DNA of 64,000 nucleotides from Pigmentiphaga aceris (lineage in GTDB: Bacteria; Pseudomonadota; Gammaproteobacteria; Burkholderiales; Burkholderiaceae_B). This document shows positions 5,846 to 20,162 of the stretch, piece after piece. Positions within the stretch are counted from its first letter, which is position 1; each line of letters starts with the position of its first letter. The position numbers and the translations under genes were made by a program. The DNA lies in NCBI RefSeq assembly GCF_008119665.1, contig NZ_CP043046.1, positions 4,340,001-4,404,000 of the forward strand. Direction: 5' to 3'. The notes beneath the pieces were generated by a model. The model searched no databases. It was not told where the DNA came from and saw nothing but the letters and a program-made list of their open reading frames with translations.

Positions 5846-7340
5846 CATATCATCCCCGCTGACGCGGGGAAACACGCAGACCAAGCGTGTTAACCAGGCC
5901 CGGTTCGGCGGTTCATCCCCGCTCGCGCCGGGAACATGTCAGCTGATTGCCGTCGTAGTAGTCGGCGCACGGCTCATCCCTACTAGCGCGGGGAACACTA
6001 TGTCTTCGTGCCTGCCAGCAGTGCACGCACCGGTTCATCCCCGCTCACGCGGGGAACACGCGTCGAACAGCGGAGAAACAGCGGCGGTGGGCGGTTCATC
6101 CCCGCTCGCGCGGGGAACATTATGCGTCCTTGAACGCCATCCGAGCACCGACCGGTTCATCCTCGCTCGCGCGGGGAACACGGCTGATGTGGGTGTCGAT
6201 CCTGCCTCGAAGCCGGTTCATCCCCGCATACGCGGGGAACACTGCGCCATCGATTGATTGGTGACGCCGACGGCCGGTTCATCCCCGCATACGCGGGGAA
6301 CACCAGCGATGGCGACGGACTGACGTTTACCCTGACGGTTCATCCCCGCATACGCGGGGAACACGACCGTCGGAACAGCCAGGGTTCTGGCTACAACGGT
6401 TCATCCCCGCATACGCGGGGAACACCACGGCTACTCGCCCGAGGCCGTTCTGATTGGCGGTTCATCCCCGCATACGCGGGGAACACAGATGGCAGCGCCA
6501 CACACGCCAAAGAAATTGCGGTTCATCCCCGCATACGCGGGGAACACTTTGCTCGGGTATGCCATCAAACATCTCCCTGCGGTTCATCCCCGCATACGCG
6601 GGGAACACGCCCACATAGGCACACCAGCCGGGACCACCAACGGTTCATCCCCGCATACGCGGGGAACACGCCTCCGCCCAATAGCGCAGCTATAAGGGTG
6701 CCGGTTCATCCCCGCATACGCGGGGAACACTCTTTGTGGCCACGCTGACCGGCGCATAGAGCCGGTTCATCCCCGCATACGCGGGGAACACTCTATGAGC
6801 AAATGGCCGCTGCTGCCGCTAGCCGGTTCATCCCCGCATACGCGGGGAACACTTCCGCGAGTGGAACGCGCTGGAGTACGAGAACGGTTCATCCCCGCAT
6901 ACGCGGGGAACACGTCGTGACGCTCGCTTGCAAGTCAGTGACCTGCGGTTCATCCCCGCATACGCGGGGAACACGCACTGGGAGCGCCAGAAGAACCGCG
7001 AGGTAACGGTTCATCCCCGCATACGCGGGGAACACCGAGGATCACCAAGGGCGGGGACCAAAAGCTACGGTTCATCCCCGCATACGCGGGGAACACCTCG
7101 ACGCCGTGATAGAAATCAGTAGTAGCCACGGTTCATCCCCGCATACGCGGGGAACACTAGAGAACATGGCGTCCCTTCCCGCCATTGGGCGGTTCATCCC
7201 CGCATACGCGGGGAACACTAAACCCGCCGCCAGCAAGCGAAATCATTGAGCGGTTCATCCCCGCATACGCGGGGAACACGATTTCCGCTCATCGAAGTTA
7301 TCAGCAAAGTCCGGTTCATCCCCGCATACGCGGGGAACAC
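5846..7340 (-). CRISPR. CRISPR array 1, type I-E, 25 repeats / 24 spacers
   Basis: 29-nt repeats with 32-nt spacers (period exactly 61) start at 5909 and recur to 7312-7340; a degenerate 30-nt copy at 5846-5875 precedes them. On the plus strand each repeat begins CGGTTCATCCCCGC and ends GCGGGGAACAC, with a 4-nt loop between. The handle reads ATGAACCG in the other direction, so transcription is leftward with the leader at 7341. The old end is at the left: repeats 5846, 5909 and 5970 carry point changes. Copies at 5909-6153 have loops such as TCGC or TCAC, and all 19 copies from 6214 to 7312 have loop ATAC. The newest spacer is 7280-7311. Plus-strand ORFs across it are artefacts of the repeat. 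Confidence 0.99.
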
Positions 7341-7423
7341 ACTTAGCCTACATCATTGTTTTTAAAGAGAAAAACCACCCTCGAAAATTCTACCGATTTT
7401 CCAGGCAGATTTTCACCCCTGTT
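7341..7423 (-). promoter_or_regulatory. Leader of CRISPR array 1
   Basis: AT-rich segment directly abutting the leader-proximal repeat. Its first roughly 65 bp (ACTTAGCCTACATC, then a run GTTTTTAAAGAGAAAAA and CCACCCTC) are almost identical to the sequence after array 2 at 12261. It therefore marks the acquisition end and should hold the leftward array promoter; I could not assign -35/-10 boxes safely. The cas3 stop codon lies at its right border (7424). Confidence 0.85.
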
Positions 7424-10183
7424 TCAGCCCTTGCCGACCGCCTCAAACACCAACCCAATCACTGCGTCATACACGGCCCAAACCACCTTGCCATCCGCCC
7501 GTACGGTTTCGGCTTGCCAGCGTCCGTCCGCAGCCACCAGCGGCAACAACAACGCAGGTGCTTCCAGCAATCGATGCCGTGCTCTCAGCGCATCGATCTG
7601 CGTACCAAAGCGCTGACTCCACGCCGGCGACAAGGCCTCAATATGGCGAGCGTCAACCGTCACGGCGGACTGCTCCCATGCAAAGGCTCCGTCATTACGC
7701 CAAGCCTGTAGTTCCGACCCAGTATCCCGGCACAGAAAAATCTTCACCGTTGCTTCACCCAATCGCGTGGGTACCTGGGTGTCTTCATACCAGTGGTGAC
7801 TGCTTTCCACGCAGTACCCGTTTTCCATGCGCAGCGCGTTGAAGCGTGCCTGCGCACCTTCGGCCATCACGACGCCCATGTAGGCCGACGTGGCTTTTTG
7901 CAGGGCGTCTGGTATTTCTTCCGCAGCATCGCCATAGACCGCTTCGACCAAAGTCCGAACCCCGCCGATCTGCCCTGGCTCGCCAGGACTGACAATCCGC
8001 CCTGCATTCACCAATGCACGCTGCGTAAGCCACAGGTTGCCGACATTGGGGTACACGTATCGCCCGCGTGGAAAGGTCAGCGAATACCAGTCTTGCCTTG
8101 GTGTCGTTGTCCACACCGGAGCCAGAATGTGCAACACAGGTTCAGGGCGCTGTTCATGGGCAGACGGTTCACCATCTGCTGCTCGCGTGTGACGATGCAA
8201 GCGCCCTGCTCGCTGGATCAGCAGGTCGATAGGCGCAAGGTCTGAGATGAGCACATCAAAATCGAGATCCAGCGATTGTTCGACAACCTGCGTTGCCACC
8301 AACACCTGCGATCTGCGCATTGCTGCGGTGGACGTTTTGCCGAAACGTGCTAGCACGCTGTCTTCGATGTCCAGACGGTCACCCATCGCATATCGGCTGT
8401 GGAACAAAGTCAGCGTAGACGCATGCATGTCGCTGCTCAGTTTTGCGTAGGCTGCGCGTGCGTCGCCAACCGTGTTCCGTATCCAGCAAACGCTTTTGCC
8501 TGCCGCCGCCTGTTCCCGAATCAAGGTGATCACCGCATCTTCGTCATGCAAGCAACGCACTGCTACCTGTCGCACCAGAGACGAACGCGTTTCGCATGCG
8601 TAGGTCTGTGTGGTGTCGTGAACATGCGTGACCAGCGGGTAACGCAGGTCTGCCGCAAGCGGTTCGCCTTGGTTGCCTTTGCCCGCCTGGAATGCTTGCA
8701 CCAGTTCTGCCCGCATGTCGTTAGCCAAGGTCGCCGACAGCAAGATTGCAGAGCCGCCCTGGCTGGCATGCGCGGCCAACAACTTGGCAAGCAAGGCACG
8801 CATGTAGGGATCGTAGGCATGCACTTCGTCAACCAGCAATACCTTGCTTGCGAGGCCCAACAGCCGCAGTGACTGATGCCGAACGGGCAGCACAGACAAC
8901 AGGGCCTGGTCCAGCGTGCCGACGCCAACGTGCGCCAGCAAGGACTTCTTGCGACTATCGGCCAACCAGGCAGCGCACTGACTGCTTGCGCTGGTGTCGT
9001 CATGCCGATAGTCGGCGTCACCTGACTGCGCGTGCGCATACAGCACACTTTCTCGGAAGGCATCCACCAACTGCCTGGCACCATGCGCGAGCACCAATGA
9101 AGGAGACGCGTCGTCTTCGTACAGGCGTCGATATACCGACCCGACGCGCTGGTACATCTGGTTGGCGGTTGCCATTGTGGGCAGCCCAAAATACAGGCCG
9201 TGCGCAAGATTGGCCGACATCAGGCGATACGCCAGCATCAACGCGGCTTCGGTTTTTCCAGCGCCGGTGACGTCTTCAAGCAAGAACAATTGCGGGCCTG
9301 AACCGAGTGGCATCGTCGCCGCCAACTGCTGCAAAGGCGTGGGTGAAGCAAGGTAATCGAAGAGCTTGAAAGGACTGCTCCAATCGCGGATTGGCTCGGC
9401 ACCGACACCCGCAGCCTGAACGACTTTTTTGGCAACGGGCAATGCCGTGCGGTCCCAGTACTCGTCCAGCGCGACTGGCTGCGACTGATATGCAAACGCC
9501 CGCTGGTCAGACCCCAACCAATCTGCCAACACGGCAGTCCCCGCCAGCCGCCACGCATGCTTTTTCAGAACCACCAACGATGCTTCGTCAGGCGTTGGAA
9601 TGTCTGTGCGGATAAGCAGCCTTGCCGCCTCGACGTAGAACGCACGCGCGGCATCGATATCTGCGGTGCAGAAAAAATCGTCAGGGTCCAACGCCCACGC
9701 ACCACTTGTGCTTGTCTCTTTAGGCGGCACACCGTGGTGACCAGTGCAGATGCGCGCCCAATCTGCCCAGAAATAATCGTCAGGATTGGGAAGCGGCTGG
9801 CCATCGAAATCTTGCGCCAGATAGTCGCGCCACAGCAGCCAACCCAAGGTGTCGTGTCGTTCGTCATAGCGCTTGGACGCGACGACAGGCACCAAGTCAG
9901 CAGACATGCCGGGGACGAGCCGCTGAAAAGCGCGCGCGAATTTTCCGAGGTCGTGGATGGCCAGGAAAAACCGGTGTAGCGCTGCGACGGTTTTCAGCGG
10001 CCAGCCCAAGTCTTGGGCAAAGTCGTGCAGGGAGAAAGCAGGCAGATCAACGATGCGACTTCCCGCAGCGGCAACTTCCAGCGAGTGATAGGCCAGCAGG
10101 TGATAACGGGACGAATCCGACTGGGAGACGGGCATGGCCTTGCCCCAGTAGGCGTAGTAGGAAGGTCTTGGGGGAGCGGTCAC
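7424..10183 (-). CDS. cas3: CRISPR-associated nuclease/helicase Cas3 (type I-E)
   Basis: Full-length 919-aa Cas3, the nuclease-helicase recruited by Cascade to unwind and degrade target DNA. The N-terminal HD nuclease domain shows His33 (YHSLEV) and His77-Asp78 (AIHDLGK), then GHHGVPP near 149-154. The SF2 helicase follows: Walker A EDVTGAGKTEAAL at about 303-315, LLVDEVHAYD (DEVH box), LLSATLA, and VVEQSLDLDFDVLI with IQRAGRLHRH. The start is a GTG at 10183, preceded on its strand by AAGG at a spacing of 7. It is unusual in lying apart from the other cas genes, between the two arrays, downstream of array 2. The 95 bp between its start and the old end of array 2 contains an inverted repeat TCGAAT/ATTCGA (10253-10269). 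It may have its own promoter there or be read through from the array. Confidence 0.97.
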   Translation of the reverse strand: MTAPPRPSYYAYWGKAMPVSQSDSSRYHLLAYHSLEVAAAGSRIVDLPAFSLHDFAQDLGWPLKTVAALHRFFLAIHDLGKFARAFQRLVPGMSADLVPVVASKRYDERHDTLGWLLWRDYLAQDFDGQPLPNPDDYFWADWARICTGHHGVPPKETSTSGAWALDPDDFFCTADIDAARAFYVEAARLLIRTDIPTPDEASLVVLKKHAWRLAGTAVLADWLGSDQRAFAYQSQPVALDEYWDRTALPVAKKVVQAAGVGAEPIRDWSSPFKLFDYLASPTPLQQLAATMPLGSGPQLFLLEDVTGAGKTEAALMLAYRLMSANLAHGLYFGLPTMATANQMYQRVGSVYRRLYEDDASPSLVLAHGARQLVDAFRESVLYAHAQSGDADYRHDDTSASSQCAAWLADSRKKSLLAHVGVGTLDQALLSVLPVRHQSLRLLGLASKVLLVDEVHAYDPYMRALLAKLLAAHASQGGSAILLSATLANDMRAELVQAFQAGKGNQGEPLAADLRYPLVTHVHDTTQTYACETRSSLVRQVAVRCLHDEDAVITLIREQAAAGKSVCWIRNTVGDARAAYAKLSSDMHASTLTLFHSRYAMGDRLDIEDSVLARFGKTSTAAMRRSQVLVATQVVEQSLDLDFDVLISDLAPIDLLIQRAGRLHRHTRAADGEPSAHEQRPEPVLHILAPVWTTTPRQDWYSLTFPRGRYVYPNVGNLWLTQRALVNAGRIVSPGEPGQIGGVRTLVEAVYGDAAEEIPDALQKATSAYMGVVMAEGAQARFNALRMENGYCVESSHHWYEDTQVPTRLGEATVKIFLCRDTGSELQAWRNDGAFAWEQSAVTVDARHIEALSPAWSQRFGTQIDALRARHRLLEAPALLLPLVAADGRWQAETVRADGKVVWAVYDAVIGLVFEAVGKG

Positions 10184-10278: not shown

Positions 10279-12260
10279 TAGCTCATCCCCGCATGTGTGG
10301 GGAACAAATATAGATGGCAATCGCAGCGCCAATCTAGGCGGTTCATCCCCGCATGCGAGGGGAACGCTCGAACGTGACGCTCTCGGCGTTGGAGATGTAT
10401 AGTTCATCCCCGCTCACGCGGGGAACACTCAGCCTGCGCCGTGGCGTAGTCGGACCATTGCGGTTCATCCCCGCTCGCGCGGGGAACACGATGACATCAC
10501 GGTCGCTGCACTGCGCGCGGCCGGTTCATCCCCGCTCACGCGGGGAACACAAGGTCGTTCTAGTCCACCTTGTTTCGGCCTACGGTTCATCCTCGCCTGC
10601 GCGGGGAACACCGACGGATGTAGCCAGCGCGTGCGCGCAATCCCGGTTCATCCCCGCCTGCGCGGGGAACACCAATTGCAGCCCGTAGCGATGCCTGGGC
10701 AGATCGGTTCATCCCCGCATACGCGGGGAACACGACAACGCCGTGGCCTGCACGCCGTCGACCAACGGTTCATTCCCGCATGCGCGGGGAACACGGCCGA
10801 AGTTCTCTGCGTACTGGTCACGAATGCGGTTCATCCTCGCTCGCGCGGGGAACACTACGCGGAACAAATCCGGGCCGAGCAGAAGAGCGGTTCATCCCCG
10901 CTCGCGCGGGGAACACTTGGACCACCAGAAACCCTGGTCGAGATCGACCGGTTCATCCCCGCTCGCGCGGGGAACACACCAGACGAATCGCCGCGGCTGC
11001 ATCTCCGGCCGGTTCATCCCCGCTCGCGCGGGGAACACTCTTCCAACGGGCGAAAAGCAAGTCCCGCTCGCGGTTCATCCCCGCTCGCGCGGGGAACACG
11101 TCTCTGCTTGGCGTGGCCCCGCGCATCCTGGTGGTTCATCCCCGCTCGCGCGGGGAACACCGTTTGGTGTCGTTGCGCAGCCGAGCCAAGCGCGGTTCAT
11201 CCCCGCTCGCGCGGGGAACACGGGTGTAGAGGTGCGCACCAAGACCAACGAATCGGTTCATCCCCGCTCGCGCGGGGAACACTTTTCCGTTCACCTTGAG
11301 CCACTGGGGGATATACGGTTCATCCCCGCTCGCGCGGGGAACACCGTATGTGTTCTTTTGCTCATTCCTCATCTCCCGGTTCATCCCCGCTCGCGCGGGG
11401 AACACGCGCGCGGGTCAAGGGCGATGCGTAGAAGTGGCGGTTCATCCCCGCTCGCGCGGGGAACACGCCAAGTGGAACGCCTCCCGCAGCTGAACATCCG
11501 GTTCATCCCCGCTCGCGCGGGGAACACGACAGGTACGAGCGCACGGCGTGGTCGAGTTCCGGTTCATCCCCGCTCGCGCGGGGAACACGCGACAGTGACC
11601 GATGCGCCGGCACTGCCAAGCGGTTCATCCCCGCTCGCGCGGGGAACACGGCTCCTACGCGGGGTGGGTATTCGTGGCTCACGGTTCATCCCCGCTCGCG
11701 CGGGGAACACGAGAAAAAACGGGAGTCCAGCCAATGAAGACACGGTTCATCCCCGCTCGCGCGGGGAACACATCCTAGCTGGGCTGCAAGTTGCAACCCA
11801 GCACGGTTCATCCCCGCTCGCGCGGGGAACACGACGCTGAGGAAGCTCAGCATGTAGTAGCCAACGGTTCATCCCCGCTCGCGCGGGGAACACGGCGGCT
11901 CCTCGGGTCGAGGCAGGAAGTTTTCCGGTTCATCCCCGCTCGCGCGGGGAACACTCAAGGCACCGTGCCTGCCAATCACGGACCGGCGGTTCATCCCCGC
12001 TCGCGCGGGGAACACGTGCAAGAAAGCGAAGGAATGTGTGCCTACGCCGGTTCATCCCCGCTCGCGCGGGGAACACTCTTGAATGGCTTTCGGGTTAGCC
12101 TTTACCTGCGGTTCATCCCCGCTCGCGCGGGGAACACTCAATCGGAAGACGCCCACGCCAGCATGAACCCCGGTTCATCCCCGCTCGCGCGGGGAACACC
12201 CGCCCAGCCCGGACTCATTGAATTCGTAAAGCGGTTCATCCCCGCTCGCGCGGGGAACAC
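10279..12260 (-). CRISPR. CRISPR array 2, type I-E, 33 repeats / 32 spacers
   Basis: Same repeat family and orientation as array 1. Repeat starts run from 10279 to 12232, with period 61 except 60 after the first copy and 62 before 11316 and 12171 (33-nt spacers). The stem CCCCGC/GCGGGG is constant and the loop varies. The first ten copies are heterogeneous: for example a changed stem at 10279 and 10339, loop CTGC at 10583 and 10644, loop ATAC at 10705, and a CCTC change at 10583 and 10827. From 10888 to 12232 nearly all copies have loop TCGC (11132 starts with T). The leader is on the right at 12261, so the newest spacer is 12200-12231 and transcription is leftward towards cas3. Confidence 0.99.
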
Positions 12261-12319
12261 ACTTAGCCTACATCCTTGTTTTTAAAGAGAAAAAACCACC
12301 CTCAAAATTCCACCAACTT
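12261..12319 (-). promoter_or_regulatory. Leader of CRISPR array 2
   Basis: AT-rich block between the last repeat and the cas2 stop codon, near-identical to the leader of array 1 (ACTTAGCCTACATC, then TTGTTTTTAAAGAG). The similarity continues a few bases into the end of cas2 (TTTCAGGCG here, TTTCCAGGCAG in leader 1). It should contain the integration signal and the leftward array promoter. Confidence 0.85.
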
Positions 12320-13541
<1,222 letters not shown>

Positions 13542-13545
<4 letters not shown>

Positions 13546-14219
13546 GAGACGCGCTTGACCAATAACAGCCCGCAGCCAAACGCCCGCGCGTGTCCTACCC
13601 CACCCACCAATTTGGCTGCCAGGCGTGCTGGGTCTGTCACTTGCGCCAGGCCCTGGTAGTCAAACGACGAGAACTCGATGCTGCGTTTTTTGTGGTGCAG
13701 CCTGTGCTGGGTATAAGCGGTCGTCAGAACACTTTCTTCCTGAAATTCGAGCCCCCAGTCTTCCCCGCGCGATGACAGCCAGGCAAGCGACCGTTCGGTG
13801 ATCAAGTCATTTCGCGATGCTTCCGGCAGGCTGGCACCTTGGCGCTTTGCTTCCATCAGGACGTCGTGCCGTCGTGACTTGCCACCCGCCGCATCGCGGC
13901 GGGCAACGGTGGGATTGGCGCGCAGGTCGAAACGGACCCAGTCGCCGGACTCGAAGACGGGTGCGTAGGGCTTGGACTGCACGGCCAGCAGCCCAGCTTC
14001 CGCGATGGGGGCGCGCGCAGACACCACGTAATAGAAGGCTTTGCCGCGTGCATCCAGTTCGCGTCGGAACAGGAAGTCACGCTGTTCGTTATCGCCAGGG
14101 AACAAGCGCCATACCAAGGCGTGATCGCGGTAGGCATCGCCATGCCTGCTGAGTGACGCCAGCAGCGCCATGTCGAGTGGACGGTCCAACAATTGAGCAC
14201 GCGAGAAATAGTGGCTCAT
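13542..14219 (-). CDS. cas6e: CRISPR RNA endonuclease Cas6e/CasE
   Basis: 225-aa Cas6e. It cuts pre-crRNA at the foot of the repeat hairpin and stays bound to the 3' hairpin in Cascade. It begins MSHYFSRAQLLDRP; His26 (LSRHGDAYRDH) is a plausible catalytic histidine by family position. The C-terminal glycine-rich segment GGVGHARAFGCGLLLVKRV is typical of RAMP proteins. It overlaps cas5e by 4 nt (ATGA, 14216-14219) and cas1 by GTGA. The sequence elements it must recognise are the array stems and, if the guide at 18366 is real, the altered stem CTCTTG/CAAGAG. Confidence 0.96.
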
Positions 14220-14983
14220 CGGGATTCCTCTGCCGCCAGAAATACCGATTCCTGGCGAGGCGCAAACTGCCAGCGTAGCCGCGACAAGGGCTGGTCATGG
14301 CGATCTGTGTGGAAGCTTGCTTCCATGCCCGCGTCCATGCCGGATTCCCAGTAATAGCGCGCTGCGGAAAGTCTGAAGCCGATGCGATCTTCACGCGTGG
14401 GCCACGCGTGTTCGCCTGTCGTGTTCAACAAGGAAAAAAGGGAATATTGAGGCGTGTCATCCAGCGCGCTGCGCAGCGTGACACCACCTACCTGTTGGGG
14501 CGACAAGGGAACGGCCAAGGGGCAGGATTTTCTTCCCAGATAAAGCGGAAACACGGGGTGACGCAAGGCGTGGTCAAGTGCCGACAAACTGGCCGGTGCA
14601 CCAGACAATGCCTCTACCGCAACCAATGCAATGCTGTCGCAGCGATATTCACGAGCTGACAGCAAGGTGCCCACGCGCGTCGGGTCAGCCAGTTCCTGGC
14701 GGCGCGTGCGGTAGCGGATTTTTCGCTGCTGTTCGGGTGCTTGAATGGTGTGGTAGTCGCGCAGCGGCGTGCCTACGCTGACCAGCTTCACCCCAAAGCG
14801 ATACCCGGCGATGAGCGTGGCTTGGCCGGTGTCGTCATCGCGTTTGATGCCAAGCGCGGCCCCCAGCAGCCCGATCAGCGCCGACTTGGACGGATGCACG
14901 GCGGAATGCCGCGACTCGCCTACCGCGATTTCCCCCCAGCTTGCCAGTGGCCCGTACAGGCGCATTACAAGATAGTCGGCCAT
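14216..14983 (-). CDS. cas5e: Cascade subunit Cas5e/CasD
   Basis: 255-aa Cas5e, the RAMP protein that holds the 5' handle of the crRNA at the foot of Cascade. The start MADYLVMRLYGPLASWG and the following HPSKSALIGLLGAALG are diagnostic. It is the fourth gene of the operon, 4 nt behind cas7e, and its stop overlaps the cas6e start. The 8-nt handle it should bind is ATGAACCG in RNA form, shared by both arrays and by the guide-like element at 18387. Confidence 0.96.
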   Translation of the reverse strand: MADYLVMRLYGPLASWGEIAVGESRHSAVHPSKSALIGLLGAALGIKRDDDTGQATLIAGYRFGVKLVSVGTPLRDYHTIQAPEQQRKIRYRTRRQELADPTRVGTLLSAREYRCDSIALVAVEALSGAPASLSALDHALRHPVFPLYLGRKSCPLAVPLSPQQVGGVTLRSALDDTPQYSLFSLLNTTGEHAWPTREDRIGFRLSAARYYWESGMDAGMEASFHTDRHDQPLSRLRWQFAPRQESVFLAAEESR

Positions 14984-14987
14984 GCGT

Positions 14988-16022
14988 TCATTCCGTTGCG
15001 ACGAAGTCGATCAGTGCAGCAAGCGTTCCTTTGCCCGCCAGCACATCGATGTCCAGATGCGCATCCGAACACGCGCCATAGACCTTGTCCATGTTGTTGC
15101 GCACGGTGGTCAGCGCGTCGATGGCGTCCTTTGCATAGTCGATGCCCGTCACGGGTTTGACGAAGGCCAAGGACAGCGAGCGCGGTTGCTGGCTGCCCTT
15201 TTCCGCCAGAACATAGTGCGCGCGAGCGCGGCTGGCAAAGCTGTTCTGTTTGCCAGTGGGGCCAACGGTAGCGGCGGCTTCGGTCAGTGCGCCCAGGGCT
15301 TGCTTGGTCAGGGTTTCATCACCGCCAAGATTCTCTTTCAGGCGGTCACGGTCGATGCAGATGTACTGGTAGAACACGGCGGCGGCAAAGCCGGCTTCGC
15401 CAACGTGACCGGCACCGGAATCATCGTTGTTCAGATCATCAACCGCGGTGAAGTAATCGTCTTCGACCACAGATGCATGTACGCCGATGGCGTGCGCTAC
15501 TTGCACGGCAGCTTCTGCGTTGAATTGGTTTTTGCCGGCCAGCATGCGGCCAAACATAGCGATATCGACGGCATGTTGAACGTGCAGCAGGCCTTTTAGC
15601 TCCGACTCGGTCGGCGCACGTTTGTCGGCAATGACGTTGGCAATCAATTGATTCAGTGACGCCCGTTCTTCAGGGGCGACATGAACGAGTTGCTCGATAT
15701 CGAGCGGGCTTTCTTTCTTGGTCGTACCGTACACGCTGGCGATTTGGGACGCCCATTCAGTAGCCTGCTTTTCAGCAATACCCGCCTTTAAAAATGCCTC
15801 ATAGGCTTCGCGTCCCAAACGCTTGGTGCGCGTGCCAATGTTGCCTGCCAAGTGTTGTTGAAAAATCTCTGAGGTACGCCATGCGCGCTTCAGGCTCTGC
15901 GAAGAAATACGAAGCCGTTCAACACCACCCACGCGTGCTGTTTTGGGATTGCCCGTGTCATCGCGATTGAGGTTGGCCGGCGGATAAGAGGTCAACAGGT
16001 GCAACTGAACGAAGCGGGTCAT
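14988..16022 (-). CDS. cas7e: Cascade backbone subunit Cas7e/CasC
   Basis: 344-aa Cas7e, present in six copies along the spacer in canonical Cascade. It begins MTRFVQLHLLTSYPPANLNRD (read as MTRFVQLHLL and TSYPPANLNRD) and contains KTARVGGVERLRISSQSLKRAWR, a signature of the CT1975 family. The start ATG overlaps the cse2 stop (16019-16022). Length and motif order are normal. Confidence 0.96.
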   Translation of the reverse strand: MTRFVQLHLLTSYPPANLNRDDTGNPKTARVGGVERLRISSQSLKRAWRTSEIFQQHLAGNIGTRTKRLGREAYEAFLKAGIAEKQATEWASQIASVYGTTKKESPLDIEQLVHVAPEERASLNQLIANVIADKRAPTESELKGLLHVQHAVDIAMFGRMLAGKNQFNAEAAVQVAHAIGVHASVVEDDYFTAVDDLNNDDSGAGHVGEAGFAAAVFYQYICIDRDRLKENLGGDETLTKQALGALTEAAATVGPTGKQNSFASRARAHYVLAEKGSQQPRSLSLAFVKPVTGIDYAKDAIDALTTVRNNMDKVYGACSDAHLDIDVLAGKGTLAALIDFVATE

Positions 16023-16645
16023 GAGCGGATCTCGGCAGAAGTGGATTCAATGGATTTTTCAACGACAGCGCGGTCACGCGCAGGCAGGTAGTAATCGCGC
16101 GCCCAGCGCGACTTCAGCTTGTGATTGGGGTCTTGTACGGGTTGACGCTGTTCAACGCACCAGGCGATCACATCGTTGGCAAGCGCCACCACATCGGCCT
16201 TGTTTCCAGCAAGCTGGATGGCGCGCTTCAACTGGCGATAGAAGTCGTCGACGTCGCTGGTACGCATCAAGCGCAAAAATCTCAGCTCGCTCAGTTTGGC
16301 GTCATCACCGCCTAGCTGGGCGGCAAGGCTGCGGCCATCACGCACGTCATCCCTAACGGCAGCGACCGCACCGGCAACCAGGGCAACTGCGGCGTAGTCG
16401 TCCGCAAAATGTTTGAACTGCTTGTCGGCTTCGATCTTCATCAGCCCGGATGCCAGGCGATTGGTAGACGCTTCGACAATCAGTTCGTCAACACCAGCAC
16501 AGCGTTTGAGTGCTGCCCTGGCCCCGCGCCCCAAGCCCAGCAGCCCTGGGTGGATAGCCGGTGAACCTTGCTCTTGCGGATGTATGGCCGCCCACCACGC
16601 GCGAACCCAGCTCGCCTGGGCGTCATTCAGATATCGGTGCTTCAC
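16019..16645 (-). CDS. cse2: Cascade small subunit Cse2/CasB
   Basis: 208-aa small helical subunit, two copies per Cascade, stabilising the R-loop. The GTG at 16645 was taken as start because it overlaps the cas8e stop in a GTGA tetranucleotide; the frame is open further upstream inside cas8e. Segments such as LRFLRLMRTSDVDDFYRQLKRAIQLA and a final RWARDYYLPA fit the CasB family. Confidence 0.93.
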   Translation of the reverse strand: MKHRYLNDAQASWVRAWWAAIHPQEQGSPAIHPGLLGLGRGARAALKRCAGVDELIVEASTNRLASGLMKIEADKQFKHFADDYAAVALVAGAVAAVRDDVRDGRSLAAQLGGDDAKLSELRFLRLMRTSDVDDFYRQLKRAIQLAGNKADVVALANDVIAWCVEQRQPVQDPNHKLKSRWARDYYLPARDRAVVEKSIESTSAEIRS

Positions 16646-18207
16646 ACAGCTTCCTTCAGATGGGTGTTGACGATGTCCCGAAGCGGTTTCATGGCCTTGC
16701 TGGCGTGCAGCCACTTCACCAGGTCTGCACGTGCCTGAATCACGCGCCGCATGTTCGTATCTTCGATAGGCGCGGTTTGCACCCATTGGTCGAACAGGCC
16801 AAGCGCATGCTTGCGGGTGTCCCGAAGCCAGCGTTGATACGGTTCGGCCAGCATCGCTTCGTTGTCGAAATCGACTTGCGACAGTTGTTCCAGCAAAGCG
16901 TAGAAATGGGGTTCTGATTGCTGCCAGAAGCTCAGGGGAACGGCAGCGTCACTGGCCACATCCCCAGGGCGGTTGAAGCGTGCGGCTTTGACGTATTTGC
17001 CCAGCAGGCTGGCAGACTCGGACGCGACATCGATAGCCAGGCGGGCGGCTTTGGCGAAGTGACGCAGTTGCCATTCGGATTCGATGTTGTGGAATGGCAA
17101 GGTGCTGTCATACCAGCAGCGAGCCTTCATGTTGTCCATGTCGTAGCCGAAGCACCACAGCTTCACAGGCAGCTTTCCCTGTTTGCTGTTCATGTGCTCT
17201 ACCACCCGGGCGGCCTTGGGTTTGGCATCGTCGCTGCCGATCGCCAAGCCCAACCAATGCCGATAACCGATACCGCCCTTCTGACCCTTGATCGACAAGG
17301 GCAGCGTCTTGGGATCAAAGCTGTAGGGCGTCAGCGGGTGCACCCAGTGGCCGTTGTAATTGGTGCCGTAGTTGCGGGTACGGTACTGCGTCAGCAGCGT
17401 TTCACTGTGCTGTCCACACAAGTCGCAATGGCCTGTTTGCACGTTTGCGAAATCCAGCCGAATGCGGCGTGGCGTGCTCCAGTAGGCCTGTAGCGGATGG
17501 ACGTTTTCAGGTGTGGTGTCGCCCACGCCTTTTGGGTCGCTGGTACGGGTCGGCCCCATCCAGGGCAGGACGGAAGACAAGTCTGCAAGCTCGGGGTACC
17601 CCAGCCAATCTTTGGGGATCACATTCAGCCAGAGTTTCTGCCAAAGCGTGGCGGCAGGGTTGCGAGGCATCAGCAAAGTCGTCAGCGGCCCGCCGCCACG
17701 CACCGACACGCGGTGCCCTGCTCCACCAGACGGCGCGTTGATCTGCAAAGTGAACAAGGCCGTTGCGGCGCATGTGGGACACATTCCGTTCACTGCGCCC
17801 CGGTGGACAAAGTGATCGAGATTTTTCTTGGTGGTGTTTTCGCCGGGTGACTCGATCAGCAGCGCAGCGATGGGGGATGCTTCGCTGTCGCTCAGCAGGT
17901 CGACATCCTGCATGAATGCAGGTTTGTCGGTGTCGAGTTCGAAGGCGTGCAGATAGGGTTCGAAGGCGGCTTTCAGCTGCGCTTCGGTGGGGGGTGCGTC
18001 CCAGTACTTTTTCCAGTCGCTAAGCTTTGCGGGTGCGAAGCTGAGTTGAAGGACGCCGATCAGATATTGAAATAGTGCCGCGCGGAAATCTGGTCTTGGT
18101 GAGATCAAGTCATAAATGTCAGGCCGCCATACATCTACGGCACGAATACGACATTCATCACCGTCACGGGTACGTACATCAAGGAATGGATCACATAGCG
18201 TGTTCAT
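16642..18207 (-). CDS. cas8e: Cascade large subunit Cas8e/Cse1/CasA
   Basis: 521-aa large subunit that reads the PAM and recruits Cas3. The start is ATG 18207; a TTG 15 nt upstream is possible but less likely. A zinc-binding pair is visible: CPTC near residue 145 and CDLC near residue 265. The N-terminus NTLCDPFLDVRTRDG is typical, and the C-terminal four-helix bundle region follows. It is the first gene of the seven-gene leftward operon. Its 5' flank at 18236-18250 carries an AAG PAM followed by 12 nt that match the pseudo-spacer of the guide-like element at 18366, so Cascade may control its own synthesis. Confidence 0.96.
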   Translation of the reverse strand: MNTLCDPFLDVRTRDGDECRIRAVDVWRPDIYDLISPRPDFRAALFQYLIGVLQLSFAPAKLSDWKKYWDAPPTEAQLKAAFEPYLHAFELDTDKPAFMQDVDLLSDSEASPIAALLIESPGENTTKKNLDHFVHRGAVNGMCPTCAATALFTLQINAPSGGAGHRVSVRGGGPLTTLLMPRNPAATLWQKLWLNVIPKDWLGYPELADLSSVLPWMGPTRTSDPKGVGDTTPENVHPLQAYWSTPRRIRLDFANVQTGHCDLCGQHSETLLTQYRTRNYGTNYNGHWVHPLTPYSFDPKTLPLSIKGQKGGIGYRHWLGLAIGSDDAKPKAARVVEHMNSKQGKLPVKLWCFGYDMDNMKARCWYDSTLPFHNIESEWQLRHFAKAARLAIDVASESASLLGKYVKAARFNRPGDVASDAAVPLSFWQQSEPHFYALLEQLSQVDFDNEAMLAEPYQRWLRDTRKHALGLFDQWVQTAPIEDTNMRRVIQARADLVKWLHASKAMKPLRDIVNTHLKEAV

Positions 18208-18232
18208 CTCACCCTCAAGCAAAACATCAAGT

Positions 18233-18250
18233 TATAAGTCTTATAGCTAG
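18233..18250. promoter_or_regulatory. cas operon upstream region: PAM + 12-nt pseudo-protospacer in a palindrome
   Basis: This site lies 26-43 bp upstream of the cas8e ATG. It contains the perfect palindrome TATAAGTCTTATA (18233-18245), which reads TATAAG like a -10 box on both strands. AAG at 18236-18238 is a canonical I-E PAM, and TCTTATAGCTAG at 18239-18250 is identical to the first 12 nt of the pseudo-spacer at 18395-18406. A -35-like TTGACT on the minus strand lies at 18295-18290. Whether the -10 belongs to cas8e, to a rightward transcript, or both, is unresolved. Confidence 0.65.
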
Positions 18251-18301
18251 ATCGTCGACTTATCTATCTTGTGTGCTTCTTGCTTGATGAGTCAAGGAAA
18301 A

Positions 18302-18361
18302 ATGGCCGGACTTTACGCACCGAAGGCAGCATTTCAACGGCAAGACGATCGGTACTTGTAG
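18302..18361 (+). CDS. 19-codon mini-ORF between Cascade target site and guide (CreT candidate)
   Basis: A small reading frame, ATG at 18302 to TAG at 18359-18361, encodes MAGLYAPKAAFQRQDDRYL. A purine-rich AAGGAAAA sits directly upstream (18294-18301), a good Shine-Dalgarno with short spacing. The ORF ends 4 nt before the first pseudo-repeat. Known CreTA modules have the order target promoter, creT, creA, with a tiny toxin ORF or RNA, and this position fits. Nothing in the peptide proves toxicity: there is no membrane helix and no run of rare codons. It could also be chance or a leader peptide. Confidence 0.35.
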   Translation: MAGLYAPKAAFQRQDDRYL

Positions 18362-18365
18362 ACTG

Positions 18366-18443
18366 GCGGTCTCTTGGAACCAAGAGATGAACCGTCTTAT
18401 AGCTAGGCGGACCAAACGTTCCCCGCCTAGCGGGGATATAGGG
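18366..18443 (+). ncRNA. crRNA-like guide element (CreA/CreR-like), pseudo-repeat / pseudo-spacer / pseudo-repeat
   Basis: Pseudo-repeat 1 (18366-18394) keeps the exact 5+6+4+6+8 layout of the array repeat. Its stem is CTCTTG/CAAGAG instead of CCCCGC/GCGGGG, so the two arms changed together. The 8-nt handle ATGAACCG (18387-18394) is unchanged. A 21-nt pseudo-spacer follows (18395-18415), starting TCTTATAGCTAG. Pseudo-repeat 2 (18416-18443) has the normal stem CCCCGC/GCGGGG, a 3-nt loop CTA and a decayed handle ATATAGGG. That handle would not be needed, because only the hairpin stays on a mature crRNA. Cas6e cleavage at both stem feet would give a 49-nt RNA (18387-18435) against 61 nt for an array crRNA. 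The 12-nt seed matches 18239-18250 next to an AAG PAM. By analogy with CreA/CreR guides it should direct Cascade to repress, not cleave. Confidence 0.8.
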
Positions 18444-18455
18444 CGAAAGACGGCG

Positions 18456-18490
18456 CATGCGTTGGGTAGCTAAAACCTGCCCAACGCATG
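18456..18490. terminator. 11-bp hairpin between guide element and hipA
   Basis: Arms CATGCGTTGGG (18456-18466) and CCCAACGCATG (18480-18490) pair perfectly around a 13-nt loop. It lies 18 nt after the hipA stop and 12 nt after pseudo-repeat 2, so it could end either transcript. Neither side has a U-tract, so intrinsic termination is not proven. Confidence 0.5.
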
Positions 18491-18507
18491 ATTGCAGACC
18501 ATGATCT

Positions 18508-19872
18508 CTACAAGTCTTCTGCCCGAACCTGCGCAACCATGTCAGCCATGGCCAGTTGCCGCGCGCAGTTTTCTTGAACTACTTCAGTTATCCGATGCTT
18601 CACCGCATCAGGTACGACTGGGTCGCCGCCAACACCCGGCAATGCCTTCAGCACAAGATCAGCAAGCAGCTTGATCTGCCGCCCCACCAGCGCGCCTGAC
18701 AAGCCGTTGTCTTTCGCAAAGCTGGCCCATTCGAATGCGCTCAGCGCGTCGGCGGTAAATGCGTCGCCAATCGCCATTGCGTAGGTGTTACCTAGCTGCG
18801 CATCATCAAGCGCAGGCACGCACACCATGTCGTAGGCGGGGGCAAGCGTAAGTCCTGCGGCATTCACAAAGAAAGACAGGTTTTTTCCGTGCGCATCGGT
18901 GTTGCCGATCAGTACCTGGAAAATGACCCATTGAAGCAAGGCCAGTTTGTCGATGGCGGGTTGCATGCTGAAGCGTGCAATCAGGTCGAACAACTTTGCA
19001 TAAGTCACGCCGTCACGAATGTTGCGCACATCAACGCCATCACCATAAGGACGCTCATATTTCATCGACACGGGAAGCCCCAAGGCCTGACACCCGTCGA
19101 TAAGATGCAAGCGTTCCACCCGGTCTGCGCGCTCAAGTCGATCGAAACGACTTACCAACAGTACCGGCTCGGGTACGGTAGCGACGCGCGTATTGGCGGC
19201 CTTCACACCCACGCGTTGGGCAAGCTGCATGCAGAAGTATTCGTTGTACGGCAGGCTGGCGAGCGCCGGCCGCGCTGGCACGGGTTTGACGATCACGGTC
19301 GATGCAAGCCTGGGCCCTTCTACCAGGAACCACTCGCTGTCGCGCTCGTAAATGGCAATCTTGTCTTGATAGCCCGCTATCGATAGCCGGACTTTGCCAT
19401 CCCAGACGGAAAAAGGGCGTTCCGCACGCCGACGAATTCGTTCTGACAGCTCTTCCTGGGTAACGCGGCGAAGTTGATTCGCGTCGGATACAGCAGCCCG
19501 GACAGGCGGGCTGTCGGCTGCGTCCTCCGCAGTGCCGGCTTCCATCAAGACACGCAGCGCGCCAGCCGTCTCTTTGCCCAAGGCAAACATCAAACCAACC
19601 AGATTTGCCTTGGATATCCCGTAAGCCTGCGCCGCGTGATCAAGTGCCTCTCCTTCGGGCAGTAGATTTTCGAAAAACTGGCGTACCTCGGCGCTGTGTT
19701 TTTCAGGGCTTTGCTCGGGCTCCTTTTTCAGCGGAAGACGTGGGCTTATCGCAAAGGCGTGCTTTGCAGCTGTCCACGTACCGGCATAGTCGAACGAGAA
19801 CAGGTTCAACGCGGGATCATGACCTACCCATCCGATCGGGGCGTCATCAAGCCATATCGCGAGACGCGTCAT
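18508..19872 (-). CDS. hipA: HipA-type serine/threonine kinase toxin
   Basis: 454-aa HipA toxin of a type II toxin-antitoxin pair; family members phosphorylate glutamyl-tRNA synthetase or similar targets and cause growth arrest. The N-subdomain 1 (MTRLAIWLDDAPIGWVGHD) is followed by the ATP-binding core. The catalytic loop is LIGNTDAHGKNLSFF and the metal-binding DFG-like motif is APAYDMV. The length is normal, with no frameshift, so it appears intact. Its ATG overlaps the hipB stop by 4 nt (19869-19872). It sits directly upstream of the cas regulatory region, sharing orientation with the cas operon and separated from cas8e by about 300 bp. Confidence 0.93.
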   Translation of the reverse strand: MTRLAIWLDDAPIGWVGHDPALNLFSFDYAGTWTAAKHAFAISPRLPLKKEPEQSPEKHSAEVRQFFENLLPEGEALDHAAQAYGISKANLVGLMFALGKETAGALRVLMEAGTAEDAADSPPVRAAVSDANQLRRVTQEELSERIRRRAERPFSVWDGKVRLSIAGYQDKIAIYERDSEWFLVEGPRLASTVIVKPVPARPALASLPYNEYFCMQLAQRVGVKAANTRVATVPEPVLLVSRFDRLERADRVERLHLIDGCQALGLPVSMKYERPYGDGVDVRNIRDGVTYAKLFDLIARFSMQPAIDKLALLQWVIFQVLIGNTDAHGKNLSFFVNAAGLTLAPAYDMVCVPALDDAQLGNTYAMAIGDAFTADALSAFEWASFAKDNGLSGALVGRQIKLLADLVLKALPGVGGDPVVPDAVKHRITEVVQENCARQLAMADMVAQVRAEDL

Positions 19873-20162
19873 GACGTGCGCTCGCTCAGCAGTTGTCGGC
19901 GAACGATTTCTCGATCCTCGGGTGCGGCAATGAAGACCCCCACGCCAAAAGCGCGCGCAACATTGATCGCGGTGGCCAAGCCTACCGACGCACGAGCTGT
20001 CTCCAAGTCGGCAAGGGTTTGTTTAGAGACGCCTACAAGCAGCGCCGCATCGGCGATGGTCATGCTGCTGGCGGTTCGAGCTGCGCGTATGGCTGCGCCG
20101 AAGTCCGCAGCGTTTTGCACCAGCGGGTCGGAGGGAAACGGAAGTGGTACGACACGGCGCAT
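19869..20162 (-). CDS. hipB: HipB-type antitoxin, XRE-family DNA-binding protein
   Basis: 97-aa helix-turn-helix protein, start ATG 20162 with AGGA at a good distance. The HTH reads MTIADAALLVGVSKQTLADLE, seen here as TIADAALLVGV then SKQTLADLE. It is the antitoxin and autorepressor of hipBA by family knowledge. The C-terminal tail FIAAPEDREIVRRQLLSERTS follows. It overlaps hipA, so the two are co-translated. Confidence 0.92.
   Translation of the reverse strand: MRRVVPLPFPSDPLVQNAADFGAAIRAARTASSMTIADAALLVGVSKQTLADLETARASVGLATAINVARAFGVGVFIAAPEDREIVRRQLLSERTS

Follow-up and report, generated by a model that had tools for sequence, protein, structure and literature searches.

Beside the type I-E cas operon of Pigmentiphaga aceris stands a single crRNA-like unit that lies outside both CRISPR arrays, and the question is what such a unit does there. 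The window, a 64,000-nucleotide stretch of the genome, contains a complete type I-E gene set (Table 1). The unit (18366-18443, plus strand) is located between cas8e and a hipA-like gene, while the handles of both arrays and all cas genes are on the minus strand. The first-pass annotation had described a lone plus-strand unit opposite in direction to both arrays, which the coordinates and strands bear out, and had taken it for a CreA/CreR-type guide whose short seed directs the I-E Cascade to a promoter.

Table 1. Features of the guide unit, its target and the cas locus (window coordinates)
Feature	Coordinates	Strand	Remarks
CRISPR array 1 and leader	5905..7401	-	61-nt period
cas3	7424..10183	-	between the two arrays
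CRISPR array 2 and leader	10335..12321	-	61-nt period
cas11e, cas7e, cas5e, cas6e, cas1e, cas2e	12320..16645	-	gene annotation
cas8e (casA/cse1)	16642..18207	-	leads the operon presumed to be repressed; start taken as ATG
Candidate cas promoter	18231..18258	-	-35 TCGACG (18253-18258), 16-bp gap, -10 TATAAC (18231-18236); consensus 9/12
PAM AAG of the target	18236..18238	+	sequence
Target seed match	18239..18250	+	12/12 to the pseudo-spacer; protospacer would reach 18259
Pseudo-repeat 1	18366..18394	+	GCGGTCTCTTGGAACCAAGAGATGAACCG; degenerate stem CTCTTG/CAAGAG
crRNA handle, 8 nt	18387..18394	+	ATGAACCG, same as array handle
Pseudo-spacer, 21 nt	18395..18415	+	seed TCTTATAGCTAG is its first 12 nt
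Pseudo-repeat 2 hairpin CCCCGC/GCGGGG	18416..18435	+	predicted RNA 3' end
Decayed handle of pseudo-repeat 2	18436..18443	+	ATATAGGG; 4/8 handle matches

The anatomy of the unit is also as first described. The stem arms of pseudo-repeat 1 (18371-18376 and 18381-18386) differ from the array stem CCCCGC/GCGGGG at four of six pairs, each of them altered on both arms together as had been noted, and every pair is still Watson-Crick. The handle is unchanged from the arrays, and the pseudo-spacer and a second repeat hairpin follow, with a loop of 3 nt in pseudo-repeat 2 against 4 nt in the array repeat. Only the handle of the second repeat has decayed. The predicted guide RNA spans 18387-18435 and is 49 nt long, in agreement with the earlier prediction from sequence coordinates. 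The unit is therefore a stand-alone repeat-spacer-repeat outside the arrays and adjoining the cas operon, which is one of the marks of CreR. A scan of 18150-18550 against Rfam gave a single sub-threshold match (asX2, 17.7 bits against a gathering cut-off of 70, E 0.43) that we took as chance, and the promoter scan found no good promoter for the guide unit itself.

AAG is the PAM of type I-E systems, and bases 6 and 12 of a guide are left unpaired in Cascade. The first-pass annotation had named no target, but the genome has one. The site that matches the seed is flanked by AAG and is separated from the cas8e ATG by 31 bp, PAM included; an upstream TTG start for cas8e is also offered in the ORF list. 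Past position 12 the match between guide and target declines. The genome, a single contig of 6,165,255 bp, has two copies of the 12-mer TCTTATAGCTAG, one in the guide and one in the target, while the reversed-pattern control had no copy. When position 6 was left free, A[A/T]G followed by TCTTANAGCTA (positions 1-11) had one genome-wide match, at the target; since its reversed-pattern control matched twice, the single match is unsurprising alone and its weight rests on its place. Complementarity at positions 1-5 and 7-11 next to a PAM in front of cas8e, where a promoter is predicted, is the other mark of CreR. Because the target precedes cas8e and no toxin ORF fits, the guide unit is most probably CreR-type and not CreA. 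Thus, the CreR half of the combined CreA/CreR label suits the unit and the CreA half probably does not.

The candidate cas promoter overlaps the PAM and the protospacer. A rival minus-strand candidate at 18310-18337 also scores 9/12 and is the one listed by a stricter scan, in which 0.5 were expected by chance; the tie at 9/12 was resolved in favor of the candidate nearer cas8e. Were transcription to start from the promoter at 18310-18337, the target would act downstream of it, as a roadblock. Of the 40 regions with an AAG-flanked target, 19 have a best-scoring sigma70-like promoter that overlaps this target, with 7.0 expected under random placement. Promoter targeting is therefore likely across the group, and the exact promoter in the window is a consensus candidate.

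The most serious competitor is a CreA, in which the guide would be an antitoxin that silences a toxin and would affect the cas operon only through a shared promoter. The unit has the same anatomy as CreA in the available text of PMC8501985, several relatives have small ORFs between target and cas8e, HicA/HicB-like ones included, and in the window the unit has as neighbors genes resembling hipA and hipB, of which the HipB-like one scores short of its family cut-off. However, the 31-bp gap leaves no room for a toxin ORF here, and the target is the only 10/10 seed site next to AAG or ATG in the genome, the hipBA region included. A very short RNA toxin may lie in the leader at 18208-18238. Altogether we consider a CreA improbable. 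The HipA-like and HipB-like genes occupy 18508-20162, adjoin the guide and run in the cas direction.

The window unit most likely belongs to the already described CreR kind. According to the accessible part of PMC13131331, CreR RNAs repress cas genes in type I-B, I-E, and V-A systems through partial complementarity to the promoter. They sense the abundance of crRNAs as well as anti-CRISPRs (PMC12737573 and PMC12948488, as far as their available text goes), and they generally lack a toxin gene in the sections available of PMC13131331 and PMC12737573. Like them, the window unit is crRNA-like, has partial complementarity in front of its cognate cas operon and has no toxin ORF; it differs in its host and sequence, which are new, in its 21-nt guide class and in its self-complementary guide that would mask the seed. 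CreA of CreTA modules has been studied in type I-B, with a type I-F case in PMC10097628, in the text that could be consulted. CreA requires seed positions 1-5 and 7-11 while 6 and 12 are free (PMC8501985, accessible text), and the same seed rule applies here. CreA and the window unit also share a pair of pseudo-repeats that have both diverged, the first further than the second (PMC9458426, in part). In contrast, the target of CreA precedes a toxin gene and that of the window precedes cas8e, and the haloarchaeal repeats have no conserved hairpin in the available portion of PMC9458426, whereas the hairpins here are kept by compensation. Compared with the array crRNAs of its own type I-E system, the window guide shares the handle, the Cas6e-type hairpin and the AAG PAM at its target, but it has a 21-nt instead of a 32-nt spacer, lies on the opposite strand, and has a self target with a match of 12 nt only.

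The first-pass annotation had predicted the same unit in related loci, and we surveyed 118 cas8e upstream regions: the window (L003), the best 80 of 134 relatives, and 37 from further searches, two of which covered 399 and 369 genomes sampled from larger groups. L008 (a 27% partial match) and L120-L125 (duplicate loci) were left out. The orientation of L107 and L113 is undecided and probably the wrong flank was read, so both were counted as misses; the upstream DNA is short in L031 (279 bases) and L070 (8 bases). Motif scans blind to the target found one unit each in 45 of the 118 regions, and near-identical units such as L027/L030/L032, L076/L080, and L106/L116 are not independent. A second scan, blind to the stem and to the second repeat, was run on both strands of all 118 regions and required a handle of at least 6/8 plus an AAG-flanked 10/10 match in the own upstream region. 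Its 35 hits came from as many different loci and each ran antisense to cas8e; the stem was present in 32 (random positions 0.148) and the second-repeat motif in 31, which puts the unit beyond chance. Four loci were added (L005, L024, L037, and L090), and thus 49/118 regions have a unit. Both scans, and an extra look, found none in the other 69 regions, so the prediction holds for a part of the relatives and the unit is not obligatory.

Guide and target change together across these loci. With no PAM required, 42 of the 45 target-blind units match their own region at 9/10 or better over positions 1-5 and 7-11 (31 of them at 10/10), and the PAM at these 42 sites is AAG in 40, AAC and ATG in the other two. 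An own-region target of at least 9/10 is absent for L017 (best 7), L111 (best 8), and L127 (best 8). Foreign pairings of seed and region reached 9 or more in 69 of 1980 cases, near-identical relatives included. In a pilot with 21 units, the observed match sum was reached by none of 20000 permutations. Across the 40 AAG sites, guide and target agree with a frequency of 0.95-1.00 over positions 1-5 and 7-11, in part because sites were selected for 9/10, and at about chance level for positions 6 (0.25) and 12 (0.33). The frequency of agreement is 0.82-0.85 at positions 13-14, 0.45 at 17, 0.28 at 18, and near chance beyond. Free positions 6 and 12 with paired positions 1-5 and 7-11 are, as read from these alignments, a signature of Cascade. 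The AAG-flanked 12-nt target and the co-variation support the earlier proposal of a guide with a short seed that brings the I-E Cascade to a promoter.

The pseudo-repeats diverge to different degrees. There are 36 distinct stems among 43 copies of pseudo-repeat 1 and six kinds among 45 copies of pseudo-repeat 2, and 64 of the 258 pairs of pseudo-repeat 1 are altered on both arms relative to CCCCGC/GCGGGG. Possession of a stem was a criterion for the 45 target-blind units; the unbiased figure for the stem is the 32/35 of the stem-blind scan. In CreA, repeat 1 likewise diverges more than repeat 2, as far as the accessible text of PMC9458426 shows. A diverged repeat on the leader side would plausibly resist the insertion of spacers and recombination with the arrays. 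The stretch past pseudo-repeat 2 matches the handle at no more than 4/8 positions in 39 of the 45 units, in agreement with the earlier argument that parts are selectively kept and that the unit is not a dead remnant.

A dead array remnant that matches the cas leader by chance would be degenerate, have a single spacer and lack an array-like leader, as the unit does. However, remnants decay without compensation and their spacers are unrelated to the host, whereas the changes in pseudo-repeat 1 are compensated, the AAG-flanked 12-nt match is found nowhere else in the genome, and own-region matches (42/45) far exceed the foreign pairings (69/1980); we therefore regard a remnant as very unlikely. 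A conventional antisense small RNA, acting on the cas mRNA leader by pairing and independently of Cascade, would explain an antisense-oriented, structured unit upstream of the operon, but it is hardly credible since AAG stands at 40/42 sites, positions 6 and 12 drift, and Cas6e-type hairpins and the handle are kept, all of which point to Cascade, since target matches among the relatives occur on either strand, and since the window target would lie in the predicted promoter and outside the predicted transcript if the promoter at 18231-18258 is right.

The cas operon of several relatives opens with small genes. A family of peptides with a single membrane span occurs in 13 loci (L023, L024, L027, L029, L030, L032, L038, L040, L045, L047, L058, L060, and L065). 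They are mostly 36-47 aa long (64 aa in L029) with the consensus ..VNxFSPxPxALIALALxLAII.., and none of the three that were scanned reached a Pfam cut-off. In 12 of the 13 loci, those with a unit, the peptide is downstream of the guide target; in L038, which has no unit, it is just upstream of cas8e. These peptides are possibly membrane toxins repressed by Cascade or cas accessory proteins. Among the two longest ORFs of each locus, HicB-like small genes lie between target and cas8e, in the cas8e direction, in L023, L025, L027, L030, and L032, and HicA-like ones also in L025 and L030; the Pfam test was run on the L025 pair only. In these relatives the guide may also control a HicA/HicB-like toxin-antitoxin pair. 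L059, L073, L076, and L080 have a peptide of 43-45 aa ending in ..KYGLKAWPI(K/R).. just upstream of cas8e, whose L076/L080 copy had no Pfam match. L010 and L011, both from Bordetella ansorpii and the rows nearest to the window on the Cas8e tree, have between target and cas8e a peptide of 32 aa that combines a hydrophobic stretch with a basic tail (..ELLLGLIICGLLGLRKITLKIKI..), for which the window has no room.

The guides fall into two lengths. In the target-blind scan, which allowed 12-35 nt, 19 units have a pseudo-spacer of 20-22 nt and the other 26 have one of 31-33 nt, and no pseudo-spacer of 23-30 nt was found among the 45. A quick Cas8e tree was built for the 45 loci; its details are uncertain because it has several long branches. 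It requires at least 11 changes of the length class, and six of these changes are forced by starred branches. One genome (G771) has three cas8e loci (L101, L118, and L119), two of them with short-class units and related guides. Two Cas7 footprints cover 11-12 nt. Since the two classes are about 11-12 nt apart, we infer two sizes of Cascade, and the earlier view that a 21-nt guide would assemble a Cascade about two Cas7 subunits short gains weight.

Another property of the guides is self-complementarity. The seed, with the last handle base included, pairs better with the 3' half of its own guide than with foreign ones (-5.89 against -3.24 kcal/mol, 40 units, 0/5000 permutations). The difference persists after stricter de-duplication (own -5.36 against -3.08 kcal/mol, 33 units, 0/5000) and in 29 de-duplicated units (own -5.70 against -2.98 kcal/mol permuted, 0/5000). 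The hairpin is not universal: the fraction of the 40 units whose own pairing ranks within the best tenth is 0.53. G-U pairs make up 28 of the 230 predicted pairs, which proves nothing alone. Several other accounts were tried and rejected. The hairpin is unlikely to be a general property of I-E spacers, since 50 array spacers of the window gave -6.10 against -6.15 permuted (2734/5000). The inverted repeat in the guide is not a second Cascade site on the opposite strand, since AAG stands at the best such site in 0/45 units. An inherited palindrome in the target is not the general cause, as target seed against target 3' half was as low in 1321/5000 permutations, and the guide seed against the target 3' half gave no signal (570/5000). 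By eye, the targets of L073, L076, and L080 seem palindromic.

In the 49-nt RNA of the window, CCGUCU is predicted to fold onto AGGCGG (p 0.025 by spacer shuffles, handle included), while the window spacer alone gives no hairpin signal (z +0.80) and the duplex of its seed with its own 3' half has a rank of 0.24. The predicted folds thus suggest that a seed-masking hairpin characterizes the group, most of all its long class, and it is weakly shown for the window guide. For a longer precursor (18360-18450), the predicted fold of lowest energy (-35.5 kcal/mol) has pseudo-repeat 2 and its decayed handle paired to the pseudo-spacer; with the pseudo-repeat 2 hairpin enforced the energy is -33.6 kcal/mol, and the probability of the pseudo-repeat 2 stem is 0.04. 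This probability is below 0.5 in five of the 45 units, the window unit included. Such a fold could be an obstacle to Cas6e, or a switch. Seed-masking hairpins and two fixed guide lengths are unmentioned in the available text of the CreR reviews and CreA papers compared, a set that did not include the original 2023 CreR paper, and we claim no priority.

Taken together, we put at about 0.9 the probability that the unit is a CreR-type mini-CRISPR guide gene, the RNA of which would load the host's own I-E Cascade and repress the cas operon with no recruitment of Cas3. The guide RNA would be transcribed, cut out by Cas6e, and loaded into the type I-E Cascade of the host. Its seed would bring Cascade to the AAG-flanked match 31 bp before cas8e, and the cas operon would be repressed. 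Pairing would end by about position 17, and the R-loop would then not be long enough for Cas3. The crRNAs of the arrays would be competitors for Cascade and would thereby lift the repression, a sensor loop such as reviews describe for CreR, and a self-complementary guide with a hairpin over its seed would be a poor competitor for Cascade and would so tune the sensor.

A further proposal, which we hold tentatively and at somewhat less than even odds, is that the type I-E CreR guide is a tuned sensor of crRNA abundance, with a seed-masking brake and two fixed sizes that include a smaller regulatory Cascade. If this is true, the guide would load or seize DNA only when Cascade outnumbers the array crRNAs, and the part of the guide free of the target match would have evolved to fold onto the seed. 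There would also be a second, smaller Cascade with four Cas7 subunits dedicated to regulation, and CreR would be more than a plain repressor.

These results bear on how bacteria set the level of CRISPR defense, as the operon seems to carry its own thermostat. The pairing of guide and target lets this self-regulation be read from sequence alone, and the set of 45 units is a natural mutational scan of the seed rules of Cascade. Two design features are made testable, namely a hairpin that hides the seed and a class of short guides that would build a smaller natural Cascade.
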